38,257 bases of DNA, from NCBI GenBank assembly GCA_014803855.1, contig JAAVAX010000006.1, forward strand, positions 1 through 38,257, read 5' to 3'. Numbering within the stretch: position 1 is the stretch's first letter; each line of letters begins with the position of its first letter. Below are positions 8,083-30,821 of this stretch, in pieces. This stretch comes from Mycoplasma sp. Its GTDB lineage: Bacteria; Bacillota_I; Bacilli_A; Mycoplasmatales; Metamycoplasmataceae. The translations under genes were made by a program, and so were the position numbers. The notes beneath the pieces were generated by a model. That model was not told where the DNA came from. It did not search any database and saw nothing but the letters and a program-made list of their open reading frames with translations.

Positions 8083-9489
8083 ATGAAACAAGTTAGAACT
8101 AGATATGCACCATCACCAACTGGTTATTTACATATAGGAGGAGCTAGAACTGCTTTGTTTAATTATTTATTTGCAAAGCATTATGATGGTTCATTTATTT
8201 TTAGATTAGAAGATACTGATATATCTAGAAATGTTGAAAATGGTGAAGAATCACAATTAAAGAATCTTGAATGACTAGGAATAGTTCCTGATGAATCACC
8301 ACTAAATGAAAATAGTAAATATGGGAAATATAGACAAAGTGAAAAGATAAATAGATATAATGAAGTCATTGATCAAATGTTAGAAGATGGAAAGGCTTAC
8401 ATTGCATTTGATTCATCTGAAGAACTGGAGGAACAAAGAATGGAGCAAGAAAAAAATGGAATAGCTTCATTTAGATATGATCGTAATTGATTACAAATAA
8501 GTGATGAAGAAAAGGATAGAAGATTAAAAAATAATCAATACTCAATTAGAGTATCCTTACCTAAAAACAAAATTTATTCATGAAACGATTTAGTTAGAGG
8601 AAATATAGCTGTAAACACTGATGAAATTGGTGATTGAGTTATTAAGAAATCTGATGGTTACCCAACATATAACTTTGCTGTAGTCATTGATGATCATGAT
8701 ATGGAAATAACCCATGTTTTAAGAGGTGAAGAACATATAACAAACACTCCAAAACAATTAATTATTTATGATTTACTTGGGTGGAAACATCCTGAATTTG
8801 GACATTTGACAATAATTACAAATATGGAAGGTAAAAAACTTTCAAAAAGAGATAAAACTTTATCTCAATTTATTGAAGATTATAAAAATGATGGATATAT
8901 TCCTCAAGCCATTTTTAATTTTCTTTCACTTTTAGGATGAACATCAGAAGATTCTAAAGAGATTATGTCAATGAATGAACTAATAAATAAATTTGACTAT
9001 AAACGTTTATCTAAATCACCTTCTAAATTTGATATAACAAAAATGAATTGATTTGCAAAGCAATATATGAAGAATGAACCAAATGAAAGGATAATAAATA
9101 AAATTCACTTTGATTCAAATAAAAATGAAGAATGAAAAAAACTATTTATAGATACATATAAACAAAATTGTGCAAACATCAAAGAAATGCAAGAATGTTT
9201 AAATTTATTTAATCAAGAACTTGGTACTATAAAATCTGAAGATAAAAAAAATGATGTTATAAATACATTTATTAATCAATTAAAAAAAGTAGATTTTACA
9301 ATTGATGGAATTCAAGAAGCAATTAATAACACAAAGAATATCACAAATAAAAATGGAAAAGACTTATTCTTACCTATAAGAAAAGCTGCTACAAATTTAG
9401 AACATGGACCCGAATTAGCTAAAACAATTTATTTATTTGGAAAAGAAAAAATATATAAAAGGTTGGAAATAAATGAAAATAAACTTTAA
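8083..9489 (+). CDS. gltX: glutamyl-tRNA synthetase
   Basis: A 468-residue class I synthetase. HIGH is present as HIGG (17-20) within [20 protein letters not shown], and KMSKS is present as KLSKR (252-256). GatCAB is encoded about 1.5 kb away and no glutaminyl-tRNA synthetase is seen, so this enzyme is expected to be non-discriminating and to mischarge tRNA(Gln) with Glu for GatCAB to amidate. Seven or more UGA Trp codons interrupt the frame. The start has no ribosome binding site and a -10 box 8 nt upstream. The downstream gene begins inside the last 17 bases. Confidence 0.95.
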
Positions 9490-9871
9490 ATCTACTAGAA
9501 CTGAACACAATGATGAACCTAAAATAATTGAATTTACATCAAGAGTAGATATTGAAAAAGAAGATGATGATTTTATTGCTCTAACATTTGATGAAAATAG
9601 AAATGGAAAAATAATAACCAATAGAATTGAATATAATTTTGACACATTAAGAATTTATAGTGGTGTCTCATCTATTCAATGTAAATTAAATGAAATTATT
9701 AAAAATAATTTTGTAGTAGATGATATAAAAACTAATTTTTATATATATACAAAAATGATAAATATTGATATTTCAAATAAAAATGATTTAGTGTTTGAAT
9801 ATTTTGTTTCACCAGATAGTGATTTTAATCAAAGCACTAAAATAAAACTTGAATTAACTATAAAAGAATAA
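9473..9871 (+). CDS. YwiB/DUF1934-like small beta-barrel protein
   Basis: This 132-residue protein has no membrane segments or signal peptide and is rich in predicted beta strands. The pattern of an N-terminal PKIIEFTSRV strand, an LTFDE segment and a middle RIYSGVSS strand resembles the calycin-like DUF1934 family typified by B. subtilis YwiB, which often lies near aminoacyl-tRNA synthetase genes. Function is unknown. It overlaps the 3' end of gltX by 17 nt in another frame and has GGTTGG just upstream of its ATG, so it is probably translated from the gltX mRNA. Its own frame has no UGA. Family assignment is by eye only. Confidence 0.55.
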   Translation: MKINFKSTRTEHNDEPKIIEFTSRVDIEKEDDDFIALTFDENRNGKIITNRIEYNFDTLRIYSGVSSIQCKLNEIIKNNFVVDDIKTNFYIYTKMINIDISNKNDLVFEYFVSPDSDFNQSTKIKLELTIKE

Positions 9872-19057: not shown

Positions 19058-22000
19058 TTAAAAAAAATTATCTAAATCTAAAATAATTGAAGTTTCAGAT
19101 TTTAATGGTTTTTTTAAAATCGTTGTATTTGCAAAAGAATTATTTAAAATAATTTGATTTTCCTTCTGAAAAACGATTTCTTCTACATGACCAAGATTAC
19201 TAAAGAAATCAGTTGATAAAACATATAATTTAGGAAGAATTATTTTTTGAACATCATTGGGTAATAAATAACTAGAAATATTTTTAAAATTAGCTAATCT
19301 ATTTGAATCAGTTGGATCAAATATCTCTATTTTAGTAAAATCTAATACTTTAGTCATTTGATTATATATTAATCCATAATTGATTGATGATGGAATAGGT
19401 TCAAATATTTTATTTCTTGTTATTTTCCCAGTGTTAGGTAATCCTTCTGAAGAAAATGAATTTTGCTTTAACTTAACATTAGTTCCAATAACAAATGAAG
19501 ATGAACTACTAAAAGATTTTTCTCCAATTTCTTTAACGTCTAAAGTATTAATGAATTCAACATTATTTATATTTTGAAAAACATTGTTGTTTATTTTTGT
19601 TACACCTTGTAGGTTAAACTTTGTATTTGATATAGATTGTGGAAAAATAATTGATATTGAAGACATCCCTACACAAAAATCCTCATTCACAGATTGAATT
19701 CTTGCATTTCCAAAAGTTGCATTCCAAGATTTTGATATATTTTTTTTAATTTCACCACTCCATGTTAGTTTTTTAATAGTTAAATTACTTGTAAAAACAT
19801 AATACAAATTGTTATTTATTTCATTCTCTGTAGGTAAAATGACCTCATTTATTATTGCATCATCACCCTTTCATCCCTTTATCAAATTAGAAAATAATCA
19901 AAAATTGTTAGCTCACAATTTATCATTTCACTTTTCTTTTGTAAATGAAGATAGATCTCAAATCTTTTTATTCTTATCAAATTTTAATTGTTGATATAAA
20001 TAATCACTATCATTACTAGATATAACATTAGGTAAACTAGATTGAGATAGTGAAAATAAATTATTAACAATAGTATACTTATCAAAATTAAAATTCTTAA
20101 TTGTGGCATTTTTGTTTATGCCTTGAAATGTATTTATTCCTAAATTTACATCCGAATTTAAAATAATTTCACCATCCAAATTAGAGCAATAATTAAATGC
20201 ATAATTACCTATTGAAGTTAACTTTGAAAAATCAAACATATTTAATTTTGAACAATTGCTAAAAGCATAATTTCCAATAGTTGTTACATTTGGTAAATTA
20301 ATTGAAGTTAAACTGTAACAATTAGAAAATGCATAATTTGGTATATTTTCAAGCAAACCAAAATCAATACTTTCTATATTGGTGTTATTAAAAGAATTTT
20401 CTCCAAGCAATTTTAAATTTGAAAAATTTAAATTACCTAAAATAGTTGAATTGCTAAATGCTTCCCTATAAATTGAATTTGGATTAAAGTTATTATTTAG
20501 TATTATTTTAATATCAGAATTTTTAAATGCAGAATCACTAATTGTATCAATATTAGAGGTTAATTCTATGTTAATGTTATTCCATTTCTTTAACCCTTGA
20601 AATGTATTGCTTTTTATTTCATTAACATTAGATAAATTAATTGATTTAATATATCCTTCATACCCTACTAAAAAATTACTTAAGTTAGTATTAGAATTTT
20701 TTAATTCATTATTAGAATACAATTGACTTAGATATAATATACCACTATCATCTAATATAGAATTATCCAATCATTTTTCCCTAATGATGACTGCATTATT
20801 ATTACTTGCAAATGTATTAAGATAGTCTCATGAAAGTTGTGTTAATGATTTAGTTGTCGATTTAATGTTAATTGTTTTATTAGATATATTATTTTTAAAA
20901 AATAAGATGTTTGAAAGAGAATAATTTATATTTATTGCTTCATCATCAAAATTAATAACATTTATTTCTAATGGTTGAGATGAAAAAGAATAAAAGTAAT
21001 TATCTAAATTAGCTATTTCAGATATTAAAGATAAATTATTAAATTCAAATATATTTTTTGAGTTAATATTTAATTCTTTATTACTTATCAACTTTTTAAT
21101 TTTCTCATTAAATTCTCTACTTATTATTGTTGATGAATTACTAGGTAAAAAATTTTTATTTATACTAACAATAAAGGATGGAATATTAACTCTGTTAATT
21201 TTCCAATTTGAAATATTATTTTCAAATGAATAATCATTATTGTCTTTTTTAGAAGTAAAAATTATCTCATCACATGTCAAATTGTATTTACTTAAGGTGT
21301 TTGTCTTAAATGTTGGTAAATACACTTTATTAAAAATTAATTTATTTCTACTTGTAAATGTATTTGTTACTAATTTCAAAATATTATCTAATAACTTATC
21401 TCTATCAGCATTATCTTCATCAATAACATTTAATTTTAAATCATTTGTTTTTGAATCATAAACCAAACTTAAATCTTTAATGTTATTAATACCATAAACC
21501 TTTGTAAATGAATCAAAACAATCTGGATTATAATTTACCACTTCTCTAGGTAAAACAACATCATTTATTAAATTATTTGAAAACATATTAGAATTTAAAT
21601 TCTCAATGGTGGCATTAGAATTAAAAATAAGATTTGTTATCTTATTACCTATAAACTTAGCTTCAGAAGTGAATGTGACATGATTAAAATGTGATAAATC
21701 AAATTCTCCTACAATATCTCTTCTTGAAAGATCTGAATTAATTTCAATTGAAGAATTCTCTTGTTCAATTCTAATTAATGTTTCTCCAAAATAAAGACTA
21801 TTTAAATTATTTAGATTATTGCTTGTAAGATCATCATTGTTAATGATGGTGAATGTTGTTTTTTGTGAATCTTTAATATTTAAATAAGGTGTTACTTGAG
21901 ATGTAGGAGGTGTAATATTTTCATTTGTAGCTAGACTTATTAATTCCAAATTAAACTTAAAATAATTATTTATTGGATTAATCATATTTAAATTTTGAGT

Positions 22001-22591
22001 TCTTATTTTTAATTTGTAATCTATCCCTACTACATTTTTTAAAACAGTATCTTTGTCAATGTATTTATCAATAAATTCTTGATTTGTTTTTGTTTCTTTA
22101 AGAAGTTCAACTAGATTAGAATTAACATATTCTGGTTTTAATACAATAGAATTAGCTATTTCTCTATTAGCACTAATTATATACTCAGACTCAGTTTTAA
22201 ATCCATAATGATATGATTCAAACATATATTGATATGATTCATCATTTTTTAAATTTGTTAACCTAATTAATGCCTTAATGTTATTTTCATTATCATAACT
22301 TAAATCATCTAATACATCTAATTTAAGTTCCAATCCTTCAGAATTTGTTTGAATGAAAAAAAATTTCTGTTTTTCTTTTTCATTTGTCTTATAAATATCA
22401 AAATATGATTTAGGGATACCTAATGGATTAACATTAACTACAATTTTTTCCTCATTTACTAATTTTTCTAAATTGTTATTAATTAACTCTGAATCATTAT
22501 TTTTAGCAGAACATGACATAGTTGAAATAACAATTAATGGTGACATTAATATGGATGATGTTAACAATATTCTTTTTCTTTTATTTAACAT
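19058..22591 (-). CDS. BspA-type leucine-rich-repeat surface lipoprotein
   Basis: This 1177-residue lipoprotein has a basic start, a hydrophobic segment and the lipobox ISTMSC with Cys27 as the acylated residue, so it should be anchored on the outer face of the membrane. The middle part (about 645-810) carries BspA/TpLRR (LRR_5) repeats, for example IPNYAFSNCYSLTSINLPNV, then IGNYAFSNCSKLNMF, then IGNYAFNYCSNL. Weaker copies of the same pattern occur on both sides. The start at 22591 is preferred over an upstream Met because it gives a normal signal peptide and sits 10 nt after TATAAT. UGA Trp codons are clustered near 19810-19960. A role in adhesion or host binding is inferred from the family. 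Confidence 0.85.
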
Positions 22592-22601
22592 ATTAACAAA
22601 A

Positions 22602-22607
22602 ATTATA
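22602..22607 (-). promoter_or_regulatory. -10 box of the LRR lipoprotein gene, near-leaderless
   Basis: TATAAT on the minus strand, 10 nt before the chosen ATG. It lies after the terminator of the F1-like cluster, so the lipoprotein has its own promoter. The expected leader is only a few nucleotides. Confidence 0.6.
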
Positions 22608-22628
22608 TTACTTACTAACATAAAAAAT

Positions 22629-22694: not shown

Positions 22695-26379
<3,685 letters not shown>

Positions 26380-26388
26380 AATTTCTCC

Positions 26389-27039
26389 TTATTTTCTTAT
26401 CTCTCAAGCTACCATTTTTTTAAGTATAACTTTTTTGGCAACTGATTCAGCTTCTTCTTGATGTTCAACTAAATTGAATATATTATTATTAATTTCATAT
26501 TTTTTAGCAGTGAAAAAACTTCCTAATTTATAAAATGCTTTAATTGCAGTTTCATCTTTAGATAATTCTAAGAATTCTTCAAGTTCATCTAAATCTATAG
26601 ATTTTAATTTTGAAAAATTCACATACACTTTAGAAATTAATTCATCAGGTAAAATGCTGAAATTACCATTTATAGAAACTAGTTTTTGATCATTCTGAAT
26701 TATGAACATAACTTCACTAGCAATTAAAAATATTTTTTTAGTTTGATTTGATTGAGTATTGTCTTCTAATACATTTTTCTCATTATCTTGAATTGCATCA
26801 ACATCAATAATAATTCCTACAACATCAAACATAACAGCTTGATCTTGTTTTTTGTTAAGAACAGTTTGATTAGAGATGTGACTTCCATGTTTTGAGTGAA
26901 CTTCTTTGTTTAAAACTTCAATAGGAGGGAAATCCAATGAAACCAATGTAACTTTTGAAATAACCTCTTTATTTGATTTTAAGAAATTATTTAGTAACTT
27001 TGGATCAGTAGGTGTTGATAATAATAATTTATTTGTCAT
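26389..27039 (-). CDS. uncharacterised F1-like cluster protein (possible epsilon/delta counterpart)
   Basis: This 216-residue soluble protein sits between the gamma-like and alpha-like genes. It has no signal peptide or membrane segment. Strand-rich stretches (MFDVVGIIIDVDA, IFLIASEVMFIIQN, VSINGNFSILPDEL) followed by a helical C-terminal part recall the two-part layout of the small F1 subunits, but I find no motif that proves epsilon or delta. The start is fixed by the TAATG overlap with the gamma-like gene, and the frame ends after a UGA Trp (WEIRK). Function within the ATPase complex is inferred from position only. Confidence 0.7.
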
Positions 27040-28112
27040 TATCTTGCACCTCCTCTAGTTGCTTTTAAAAGAATTGTATCTTCATCTTTTTTCTTCTTAA
27101 TATCTTCTAAAATACTTGTACTTTGGTTTCTAACTTTAAAAGCAGAATAAAGAACAATTGATGATTCTGTTTCTTTCTCTCTTCTAACCCTATTAACTAG
27201 ACGTTGAATAACAACAAGTTCATCATGTATTTTGTTTTTCTTTTCATCTAAAAGTTGAAGTTCTAATTTTAATCTTTGAATTTTTTCAACTAATTTTAAT
27301 TCAACTATATTTTGTTTTATGATAGCTTTAATTAATTTAAATTTAAAGAAACTTATATTTGGAATAAATGAGATTTTTTTAATGTTTAATTTTCTCAAAT
27401 ATTTCACATAATCAACATTGATGTCACTCAAATTACCTTCTATCCCAATTTCATTATTCATATTTGATGAAGGTTCTAATTTTCTAACATTTGATTCTTC
27501 AAATAAACTTTCATCAATATTTTCATGTTCAAATGGAGCTAATTTTTTCATTACTAATTCACGATTATCAGTATTTTGTTGAGCAATAATTAGTGTAGCA
27601 TCTGAAAAAACATTATTTTTGAATGCAACTTCTACTAATGAAGCAACTTTATTTATAAATTCATCATCTTTTTTGTATAAATCATATGGAAAATGCTGAA
27701 TGATATTTAATTCTAGTTTTTGAGCAATTAGATTTACACGATTACCAATAGTAATAACTGAGTCACCTTTTTTAATTTTAGTTTCAAGGATCTCTTCTAA
27801 TTTTTTATAAATTACTTCAGAATAATCGTCATTTTCTTTTGCATCAACTAAGAAAAAGATTTCTTCTCTTGATTTTCTGTCTTTATCAACCTCTTCAACA
27901 AATGTTTTTTCATTCTTAAAGAAGTGTGAATTAATTTCATCTAAGAACTTCATGTTTGAATATTTAATTAGTTTTAAATTATCAAGTTCTTTTTGTTCAT
28001 CATTAAGAATTTGTAAAATACGTAATTTTGAAATATCTAAATATGTTTCAAAAAAATCTAAACTTTTTTCTTTACCTTTTAGAAATTTCATGTTTTTCTG
28101 AACATAACTCAT
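27039..28112 (-). CDS. F1-like ATPase gamma-like subunit, enlarged
   Basis: This 357-residue protein is longer than the usual 285 or so of AtpG. Long helical, charged N- and C-terminal parts flank a central region with alternating strands such as DSVITIGNRVNLIA and FSDATLIIAQQN, as in the F1 gamma subunit, whose two terminal helices make the central rotor coiled coil. The C-terminal IQRLKLELQLLDEKK and NRVRREKETESSIVLYSAFK stretches support this. No UGA codon is used. AGGAGG (28120-28125) precedes the ATG. Similarity is structural and contextual rather than motif-based. Confidence 0.65.
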   Translation of the reverse strand: MSYVQKNMKFLKGKEKSLDFFETYLDISKLRILQILNDEQKELDNLKLIKYSNMKFLDEINSHFFKNEKTFVEEVDKDRKSREEIFFLVDAKENDDYSEVIYKKLEEILETKIKKGDSVITIGNRVNLIAQKLELNIIQHFPYDLYKKDDEFINKVASLVEVAFKNNVFSDATLIIAQQNTDNRELVMKKLAPFEHENIDESLFEESNVRKLEPSSNMNNEIGIEGNLSDINVDYVKYLRKLNIKKISFIPNISFFKFKLIKAIIKQNIVELKLVEKIQRLKLELQLLDEKKNKIHDELVVIQRLVNRVRREKETESSIVLYSAFKVRNQSTSILEDIKKKKDEDTILLKATRGGAR

Positions 28113-28168: not shown

Positions 28169-29092
28169 TTATTCTTTGTTTTTTGGAGATACTGGACTAA
28201 TAGATGAATTAAATCTAACAGCTGCTGCTTCTGAGACATATAAAGATGTTATACCAGATGCATTTCTTACCATTATTGTTCCTGGGAAAAACTCACACTC
28301 ATGTCCATTACTTAATGCATTATCTAGTAATTTAATAAATGATTTAATTACTAAATGGTTTTTACCAGTGTCTTTAACAAATGATTGTCATTCTACAACA
28401 CCAATAGGAGGAATTAAAGCTGGGTTAGCAATTGTTATAGGGATAATTTTTGACTTATCAAAACGAATAATATCAACAATTAAAACTGAATTCAAAATAA
28501 CTGGGTAACCAGCAACAATGTTATCTTTAACTGCCTCAATAAAATTCTCAATTAAATCTTTTACTTCATCTAATTCAATAACTTCACCATCATATAAATA
28601 TATTTGTGTTTGAAGAGCTAAATCAACTAATTTTAATTTTGTATTTCTTTGTTCAACTTCATTGTAATTTCAAATTGATTTATTTAAAACCAAGTTGTAA
28701 TTGTCATATGAATCAACAGAAGATAAAGGTTTAGCATTTAAATCATTTAAATGTTCTGTTAACCCTTCAATTTTTTCTTTTCTCATTTTAGCTTCTTCAG
28801 CAACATAGTCAATATTTGTATTTTTAATATCAACTAGTTCTTGTGTTTGAGATAAAACATCTTCATATGATAAAGTTCCTGAGAATTTTTTACCTTCTTT
28901 TTGTGATTTAGATTGAAAAGAAACATTTGCATCATTTAATAATTTTGCATCAACTACCATTGTTTCAACATCTTTCATTTCATCATGTTTCTTATCAACA
29001 TCATTCATTTGAATAGGTGCTTCAGGAGTTGCTTCAGTATTATTTACTACAACAACAACTTCTTCATTTTGCATTTCTTTATCTTTATTCAT
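28169..29092 (-). CDS. uncharacterised first protein of the F1-like ATPase cluster
   Basis: A 307-residue protein that I do not recognise. Residues 1-60 are acidic and of low complexity (EEVVVVVNNTEATPEAP), probably disordered. A helical, charged middle (about 75-135) precedes a compact C-terminal half with hydrophobic strands (VILNSVLIVDIIRFD, IIPITIANPALIPPIGVVEW). No membrane segment, signal peptide or nucleotide-binding motif is seen. UGA Trp occurs at 28670-28672. AAGGAG at 29101-29106 sets the start. As first gene of the operon it is a candidate adaptor that links the soluble ATPase to a partner, which is inference. Confidence 0.7.
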
Positions 29093-29465
29093 TAGAAATT
29101 CTCCTTGTCTGTTATCTATATTGATTTAATGCATTTTGCTAAATGTCAAAAATACATTTAAGAATAAGGTGATCAAGCTTTAATTGTTTATAAAGCAAAA
29201 CTTGGCTTAATAGTTTTTTATTTATTTTCCAGTAGACAATACTCAATTTAAATACATAAAACTAAAACAGCTTAACTTAAATTTTATTATTTTTGGTATT
29301 AAAAAATTAAAAAAATAAGTTTTTTTGTAATAAATGTAAGTTAAAAAATAGTAAATTTGTATAAAAATTTTAAAAAATAGGGGTTTTTACTAAACAAAAA
29401 CGCATCCAAAAAAAAGTTTTCCACATAGAATAAATAATATAAAAAGTGTAAAATTATGCTTATTT
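29093..29465. other. 373-nt non-coding region between lipoprotein gene and F1-like operon
   Basis: No credible gene is seen on either strand. On the minus strand it must hold the end of the lipoprotein transcript (a terminator-like hairpin is at 29383-29401) and the promoter of the F1-like operon. TTGACA at 29144-29149 looks like a -35 box, but the nearest -10-like TATAGA (29115-29120) is 23 nt away, too far for a normal promoter. Small AT-rich hairpins at about 29178-29197 and 29197-29217 are visible. A single TTTTCCACA at 29417-29425 resembles a DnaA box. Confidence 0.6.
29383..29401 (-). terminator. probable terminator of the lipoprotein gene
   Basis: GTTTTT and AAAAAC arms around a 7-nt loop, followed on the minus strand by CCCCTATTTTTT. 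It lies about 65 nt after the lipoprotein stop. The stem is short, so this is tentative. Confidence 0.4.
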
Positions 29466-30821
29466 TTATTGAAATTGTCAAGTTTTTATGTTAAAAATCT
29501 TACTAAACTCACTAGAAGCCATTAAATCACCTTTATCAATATTCATATTAATATTTATTTTTATAGTATCAGAATCTGCTTCATCACCTTCTTCTAATGA
29601 TTTAATATCAAATGAAATTTGACGCTCTTGACCATTAGATGCAACATATAAGAATGATTTTGGTGATTCAAAAACTGGTATTCCTTTTTCAAATCATTCA
29701 ATAATTGTTTTTACTCCAGCATTTCTAGCATCAAAAGGATTCAACAAAATATTTGGAGTATAAATAAAAATGTTATTTTTAGCTTCTTCAACTAATGAAT
29801 TTAACATTGTATTATTACTTGAAACATAAGAACTTATTTCAGAAGAACTAGGGGTAGCAAAAGCTCAATCCTTAACTACTACAGAATATTCATGAGAAAA
29901 ATTTAATCCATATATTTTTTTTGCATCATCTAAAATTTGTGAAGAAAATTTAGAACTATCTAAGGAAATTTCCATTACAAAATTTGCATATTGTCTCTCT
30001 TTATCATAAAAATAAGAATTTTTTATTGAATATGTAACATATGGGCGATTTGTAGGGGCAACTATAGCTTGTGAAATACTTCTTACTTCTGATAATGTTT
30101 TTCCATATCATTTTTTTAATTCATCACTATTACTTTGATATCTAGGTGGTAATTTATAATCATCATTTTCTAAAATATAAATAAAATCTAAATATTTACC
30201 AACCATTTCATCTGGGATTGTTCTAAATGAAACATTTCCATTAGCATTTTCAAATATTATTTTTTTTCCAATTGTTCCATTATAACCTTGATCCTCTAAA
30301 TCTTCTACAACACCATTATCAATACCTAAAGTTATGAAATTAACATATTTTGTTATTGTATTATTAGTAATATTATCCCTAAAATTAATTAAAACTGGAA
30401 TAGTAATTGAATTTCTATTTTCAGACACAAAAGGTTTTAATTTATTACCATATGAATCTATAGTGTCAAAGAAAAATGAAAAATAAATTTCATAATCTTT
30501 GCTAACATTTTCTTCTAAGAATAATGGAGATAATTTGTTTTCATTAATAGATAAATATGTATTAATTAAATCTGGTTGATCTAAAAGAATTCTAAAAAGA
30601 GATTCATCTTTAGTAGAATTTACATCAATTACTGATACATAATCATTGAAATTGCCACTTACTTTATTTTTACTAATATCAATAATTTCATCAAGTTTAT
30701 TCTTTAAATAAGTCAAGTTTGAATCATTTGTTACATTATTATTGCATGAAACATTAAGTGAAGAAGTAATTAAAGGTAATGAAAAACCAGAAAACAACAA
30801 TAAAGTTTGTTTTATCTTCAA
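29466..30821 (-). CDS. surface lipoprotein of unknown function
   Basis: This 451-residue protein has a classical mycoplasma lipoprotein leader: basic MKIKQ, a hydrophobic core, and the lipobox LNVSC with Cys26, then an Asn-rich mature start. The rest is soluble and Ser/Asn/Asp-rich without repeats that I recognise. The start codon is TTG; AGGAGG at 30830-30835 lies 8 nt upstream and no ATG fits the leader. UGA encodes Trp at 30108-30110 and near the C terminus. It is divergent from dnaE. It could belong to a lineage-specific lipoprotein family; no function is proposed. Confidence 0.75.

Follow-up and report, generated by a model that had tools for sequence, protein, structure and literature searches.

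The G1-ATPase is an F1-like enzyme proposed as the power source of cell gliding, and its type 2 (G1) system has been published from four species (PMC11864180, PMC7052211). In the dimeric G1-ATPase of Mycoplasma mobile, chain R of PDB entry 9io5 is GliD (MMOB1620), the bridge subunit that joins two alpha3-beta3-gamma heads (PMC11864180). M. mobile GliD contributes two parallel long helices, likened by the authors to a peripheral stalk, and a globular domain that binds the C-terminal extension of alpha, and an origin by fusion of b and delta is a hypothesis cited in the same paper (PMC11864180). The name GliD itself was met in one relevant paper by full-text search. Tagging of MMOB1620 cut cell binding by 25% (PMC7052211).

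The window, the whole 38,257-nucleotide stretch analysed here, comprises bases 1-38257 of contig C6 of a draft genome (G000; 749,825 bases, 11 contigs, 96.5% complete); relatives are labelled g1 for the window's genus, g13 for a second genus of the family and Gnnn for single genomes. The open reading frame at 28169-29092 proposed by an earlier sequence-only reading was confirmed, on the minus strand, which that reading had omitted; its two TGA codons are read as tryptophan (UGA=Trp). The claims that the gene leads an ATPase operon and has a strong ribosome binding site were both borne out, since it is the first gene of a five-gene ATPase cluster and is preceded by AAGGAG. The gene and its upstream features are as follows.

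28169-29092, minus strand: orthologue of gliD (MMOB1620 family), predicted G1-ATPase bridge subunit, 307 aa; assigned by phmmer against PDB (9io5_R) and present in 12/12 genomes of the genus
29101-29106, minus strand: gliD ribosome-binding site, AAGGAG, separated from the ATG by 8 nt
29383-29427, minus strand: leader block TATGTGGAAAACTTTTTTT...GTTTAGTAAAA, conserved in four species; the window copy is the sole one in the genome
29453-29481, minus strand: promoter-like sequence upstream of the five genes of the cluster, TTGACA-17-CATAAT (11/12 consensus positions)
29466-30821, minus strand: 451-aa lipoprotein directly upstream of gliD, found in every g1 locus for which the upstream flank was retrieved

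The leader before gliD spans 373 nt, and its sequence, including the conserved block, gave no match in Rfam. The promoter-like site is positioned about 360 nt upstream of gliD; sites of this kind are no commoner in the gliD upstream region than in its shuffles. The upstream lipoproteins of the two g1 subclades match each other by profile (Prob 98.3, E=1.4e-14).

The gene had been described as unrecognised, a view overturned by the remote homology search which the same reading had proposed as a check. With phmmer against PDB at a cut of E=10, the sole match was 9io5 chain R, annotated "G1-ATPase subunit D", with E=1.2e-75; residues 52-303 align to residues 22-277 of that chain over 252 residues at 46.4% identity, and the other GliD orthologues of g1 and g13 show 42-53% identity to M. 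mobile GliD. The protein looked like an orphan because Pfam and NCBIfam models gave no qualifying match to it, the hits to Alpha-amylase_C_2, GATase_7 and DUF211 all being below cut-off and dismissed as chance. Homologues in all 12 genomes of the genus establish that the reading frame is not there by chance, and like GliD in M. mobile it stands immediately ahead of gamma among type 2 ATPase genes. The window gene is thus, judged by sequence, almost certainly the orthologue of GliD. The alternative that an unrelated enzyme or surface protein sits in the operon by accident draws on the weak Pfam matches, but it is refuted by the E=1.2e-75 match to a subunit of a purified complex and opposed by the conserved synteny, leaving it scarcely credible.

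The protein can be divided into a variable head and a conserved core, within which a long helix is predicted.

28940-29092, minus strand: residues 1-51, the N-terminal tail, which is acidic, variable and probably disordered; net charge -7, outside the 9io5_R alignment
28172-28939, minus strand: residues 52-307, conserved core of helix and globular domain, with 46.4% identity to M. mobile GliD across 252 aligned residues
28736-28867, minus strand: residues 76-119, predicted long helix at the position of GliD helix H2, which forms the parallel pair in the GliD dimer; from a low-confidence AlphaFold2 model (pLDDT 33) and PMC11864180

The acidic head noted earlier is real: residues 1-60 contain 14 D/E against 6 K/R (net -8), and only about 1% of the 495 G000 proteins longer than 150 aa are equally negative over their first 60 residues. 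Its standing as an essential part of the protein is not supported, as sister-species orthologues of the same genus are 273-274 aa long and most of the head is absent from them. Being unaligned to M. mobile GliD and mostly missing in the sisters, it is therefore regarded as an accessory tail and not a working part; it may serve here as a linker. The AlphaFold2 monomer, built with four close sequences, reached a pLDDT of 33, too low for use in fold searches, and dimer bridging is argued from homology; the 46% identity to the solved subunit suggests that the window GliD would bridge two heads in the same manner.

The remaining cluster genes, together with the gene directly downstream, are listed below.

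27039-28112, minus strand: G1-ATPase gamma (MMOB1630 family), NCBIfam NF045862 425.7 bits > 250, PDB 9io5_G E=3.1e-54
26389-27039, minus strand: gliding machinery internal complex protein of the MMOB1640 family, NCBIfam NF045864 263.4 bits > 100
24772-26379, minus strand: G1-ATPase alpha (MMOB1660 family) with a C-terminal extension, NCBIfam NF045863 833.9 bits > 600
22695-24782, minus strand: G1-ATPase beta (MMOB1670 family) with P-loop GGAGVGKT, NCBIfam NF045858 1178.6 bits > 850, 9io5_A E=1.2e-211
19058-22621, minus strand: BspA-type leucine-rich-repeat lipoprotein directly downstream of beta, Pfam LRR_5 E=7e-22

The gap between gliD and gamma measures 56 nt, and the remaining cluster genes abut or overlap. 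Alpha, beta, gamma and the MMOB1640-like protein all exceed the curated cut-offs, and beta has a long N-terminal extension of about 220 residues, which places the type 2 (G1) system in G000. Gamma, alpha and beta each find their own chain of 9io5 (9io5_G, 9io5_D and 9io5_A, respectively) as best PDB match, with the 9io5_D alignment reaching residue 534 of 535 in alpha, whereas those of the ordinary F1 alphas among the matches listed end at or before 475. Judging from inspection of its first residues, alpha appears to have no N-terminal stalk-binding helix. For the MMOB1640-like protein, NF045864 takes precedence over a GLTP hit that stayed below cut-off (E=5e-4). Apart from the cluster, a free-standing 298-aa protein is encoded at C6:164797-165693 (plus strand), which over its first ~91 residues has 50% identity to the N-terminal domain of G1-beta (region compared: window 24510-24782) and then continues into a charged, probably helical part. 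Within the window's subclade, four genomes (G000, G001, G009 and G010) have such a second copy of the beta N-terminus besides the beta gene; in the motor it could act as a decoy, a dock or an additional linker.

The sequence-only reading had cast the protein as a candidate replacement for the stator or the membrane partner of an F1 without F0. The stator-like half of this proposal agrees with the M. mobile orthologue GliD bridging heads (PMC11864180), while the membrane-partner half fails: no convincing membrane segment is seen in GliD, its M. mobile counterpart has none, and the membrane proteins are encoded elsewhere. The protein very probably belongs to the F1-like complex as a subunit and acts in a stator-like way. 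The likeness to the F1F0 peripheral stalk (b and delta) consists of a long helix plus a globular domain contacting alpha and a similar job of holding the head, but the peripheral stalk joins head to membrane and GliD joins head to head. A stronger version, following the hypothesis cited in PMC11864180, derives GliD from the peripheral stalk itself, through fusion of the F1F0 subunits b and delta. It is encouraged by the long N-terminal helix followed by a globular domain and by a best delta profile match on a short motif, NIVAGYPVILNSVLIVDIIR to ELIGGFKIVIGSVVIEDSVK, yet the hhalign comparisons were not significant, either with a delta alignment of G000 and 28 others (probability 0.3%, E=0.21) or with one b protein (probability 0.1%, worse than delta), and alpha appears to be without the stalk-binding N-terminal helix. 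Such a descent is improbable; the M. mobile structure supports GliD working like a stator part, and descent from a stator subunit is not supported.

The description as an F1 without F0 holds at the cluster locally but not for the genome, where a type 1 F1F0 operon (about C6:54263-60735) and a distant membrane pair are encoded. This pair, a protein of about 1,100 aa with 3 TM and the 12-TM protein, is encoded by adjacent genes (C6:77760-81287 and 81290-82861) 49 kb away. The seven-gene linkage of the type 2 (G1) system is accordingly not found in G000, where both membrane proteins are present and unlinked. The 12-TM protein occurs in 11/12 g1 genomes, and in each retrieved locus the pair stands together, apart from GliD, behind a further lipoprotein-like or membrane-anchored protein. 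In one g1 subclade it follows about 6 kb downstream of beta, past leucine-rich-repeat lipoproteins; the other subclade has it at a distance. Where g1 loci reach far enough, beta is followed by leucine-rich-repeat proteins, and BspA-type members (window 19058-22621; L112:1-1386) lie downstream of the G1 cluster and, in relatives, upstream of the membrane-protein pair. A third alpha/beta set was not found in the G000 genome and there is therefore no type 3 ATPase; assignment of the membrane-protein pair to a type 3 cluster was rejected on the same ground.

Of the 135 family genomes, GliD was found in 12/12 of g1, in four of g13 and, weakly, in one from a third genus, and the others gave no match; two of the 12 g1 homologues are partial or split at contig ends. 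All retrieved g1 and g13 loci place GliD before the same partners. Relatives that turned up in a named collection bear the label of uncultured Mycoplasma or Mycoplasmataceae MAGs, one of them from sheep ileum. The g13 cluster, probably that of the M. pulmonis group, runs 12-TM protein, GliD, gamma, MMOB1640, 1,100-aa membrane protein, alpha and beta, and the Gli521 region of one g13 genome (G132) is broken up over several ORFs, a state also reported for MYPU_2120-2140. A divergent cluster was also observed in another genus (G012, locus L032:3-7547), comprising an 11-12-TM protein, a GliD-like protein, a gamma-like protein, a 243-aa protein and a large membrane-anchored protein. Its GliD-like protein has 398 aa with a lysine-rich tail and is about 23% identical to M. 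mobile GliD; the cluster may represent a distant type 2 or stand between types 2 and 3.

Other parts of the gliding machinery co-occur with GliD. P42 (glide_P42, NF045859) scores 495 > 280 bits in G000 and is above cut-off in 14/135 family genomes, 14/14 of which carry GliD (Fisher p=2e-16, uncorrected for kinship). Gli521-like proteins occur in 9/17 GliD genomes versus 0/118 others, a co-occurrence uncorrected for phylogeny. The match covers the C-terminal (hook) part only, with E=3.2e-63 and 212.8 bits against a cut-off of 2200 for the partial sequence scanned; shuffled and reversed controls gave E of 0.02 or worse. The G000 members of this giant family, most of which end at contig breaks, are located as follows.

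C10:34626-44702: giant Gli521-like protein
C2:50-9691: giant Gli521-like protein
C5:2537-10918: giant Gli521-like protein
C7:3-7874: giant Gli521-like protein
C11:566-8590: giant Gli521-like protein
C4:4-1842: Gli521-like fragment

The five long Gli521-like proteins of G000 are 43-72% identical mutually; several crank-like genes are unusual, M. mobile being described with one. Beside the fragment at C4:4-1842, a partial glide_MMOB4860 match lies at C4:2222-2455 (minus strand; 31.5 bits versus a cut-off of 55). A 132-aa window ORF (9473-9871) guessed to be GliE (MMOB3660) gave no match. A phosphoglycerate kinase gene of G000 is located at C8:7942-9249. No Gli349 leg was found in g1; the matches were confined to scraps in its leucine-rich-repeat foot, at about 2670-2815 of 3169 positions, such as any leucine-rich-repeat protein might give.

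By far the best explanation, and one held with high confidence, is that the window gene is the gliD orthologue whose product, by homology, clamps two alpha3-beta3-gamma heads into a twin gliding motor. It is supported by 9io5_R as sole PDB match, neighbours passing the gliding-ATPase cut-offs, conserved synteny, the features of alpha and the co-occurrence of P42 and Gli521-like proteins, and weakened by the lack of a Gli349 homologue and by Gli521-like scores far below cut-off. The globular domain of GliD would bind the C-terminal extension of G1-alpha, while its long N-terminal helix would pair with that of a second GliD, thereby clamping the two heads. Twin motors would be linked into chains under the membrane, where ATP hydrolysis in the heads may turn gamma or shift GliD, a motion that would pull the surface gliding apparatus via the 12-TM and 3-TM membrane partners, which in g1 are second-locus genes. 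Gliding of g1 cells is accordingly predicted, in mycoplasmas known from metagenomes alone.

A twin motor with a GliD bridge might instead serve a purpose different from gliding in the M. mobile manner. It could, for instance, move or reset giant adhesins and lipoproteins of the surface, much as has been proposed for the type 3 ATPase of antibody cleavage. The absent Gli349 leg, the conserved lipoproteins heading both gene clusters, the several Gli521-like paralogues and the genetic separation of membrane proteins P1 and P5 from the motor fit such a use, but P42 and Gli521-like proteins are kept, all motor subunits exceed gliding-family cut-offs, and surface legs evolve fast, so a leg may be unrecognisable; we consider it unlikely, though somewhat less so than descent from a b-delta fusion. 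Somewhat more plausible, yet still less likely than not, is that in g1 the chain of twin motors works on a surface apparatus unlike that of M. mobile, given the missing Gli349, the several Gli521-like giants and the lipoproteins heading both clusters. This would be a re-geared, second use of the G1-ATPase, perhaps one in which leucine-rich-repeat lipoproteins act as feet for crawling over gut surfaces. In the comparison of this genus with the known motor, GliD, gamma, MMOB1640, alpha, beta, P42 and the two membrane proteins are the retained parts, and the linkage, the acidic tail and Gli349 are exchangeable. What is new is the motor in all 12 species examined of an uncultured genus, at least in part of gut origin, with P42, several Gli521-like giants and a split cluster and with recognisable Gli349 missing; the genus-wide spread, the split and the missing leg are the surprising part.

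Comparison with the type 3 F1-like X0 ATPase of MIB-MIP antibody cleavage (PMC12994834) reveals F1-like alpha, beta and gamma with 12-TM and large membrane partners in both, and alpha without the stalk helix, apparently so in the window, but the window genes miss the type 3 cut-offs of MSC_0618, MSC_0619 and MSC_0622 (388.9 < 570, 362.4 < 520 and 35.3 < 95 bits, respectively). The type 2 clusters of M. pulmonis, M. agassizii and M. testudineum (PMC7052211, PMC3369863), probably g13, have the same order of GliD, gamma, MMOB1640, alpha and beta, and both they and the window's genus have P42 and either Gli521 or Gli521-like proteins. Their seven genes are linked and Gli349 is recognisable according to the literature (PMC7052211, PMC3369863), whereas in the window's genus the cluster is split in two and recognisable Gli349 is missing. 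Relative to the M. mobile cluster, that of the window is without the upstream 12-TM gene and the membrane-protein gene before alpha, and has a conserved lipoprotein upstream instead; the acidic N-terminal tail of the window protein is longer and unaligned. With the M. mobile G1-ATPase twin motor (9io5; PMC11864180) it shares the same place before gamma, the same alpha, beta, gamma and MMOB1640 partners and, as a weak prediction for the window helix, a long helix followed by a globular domain.
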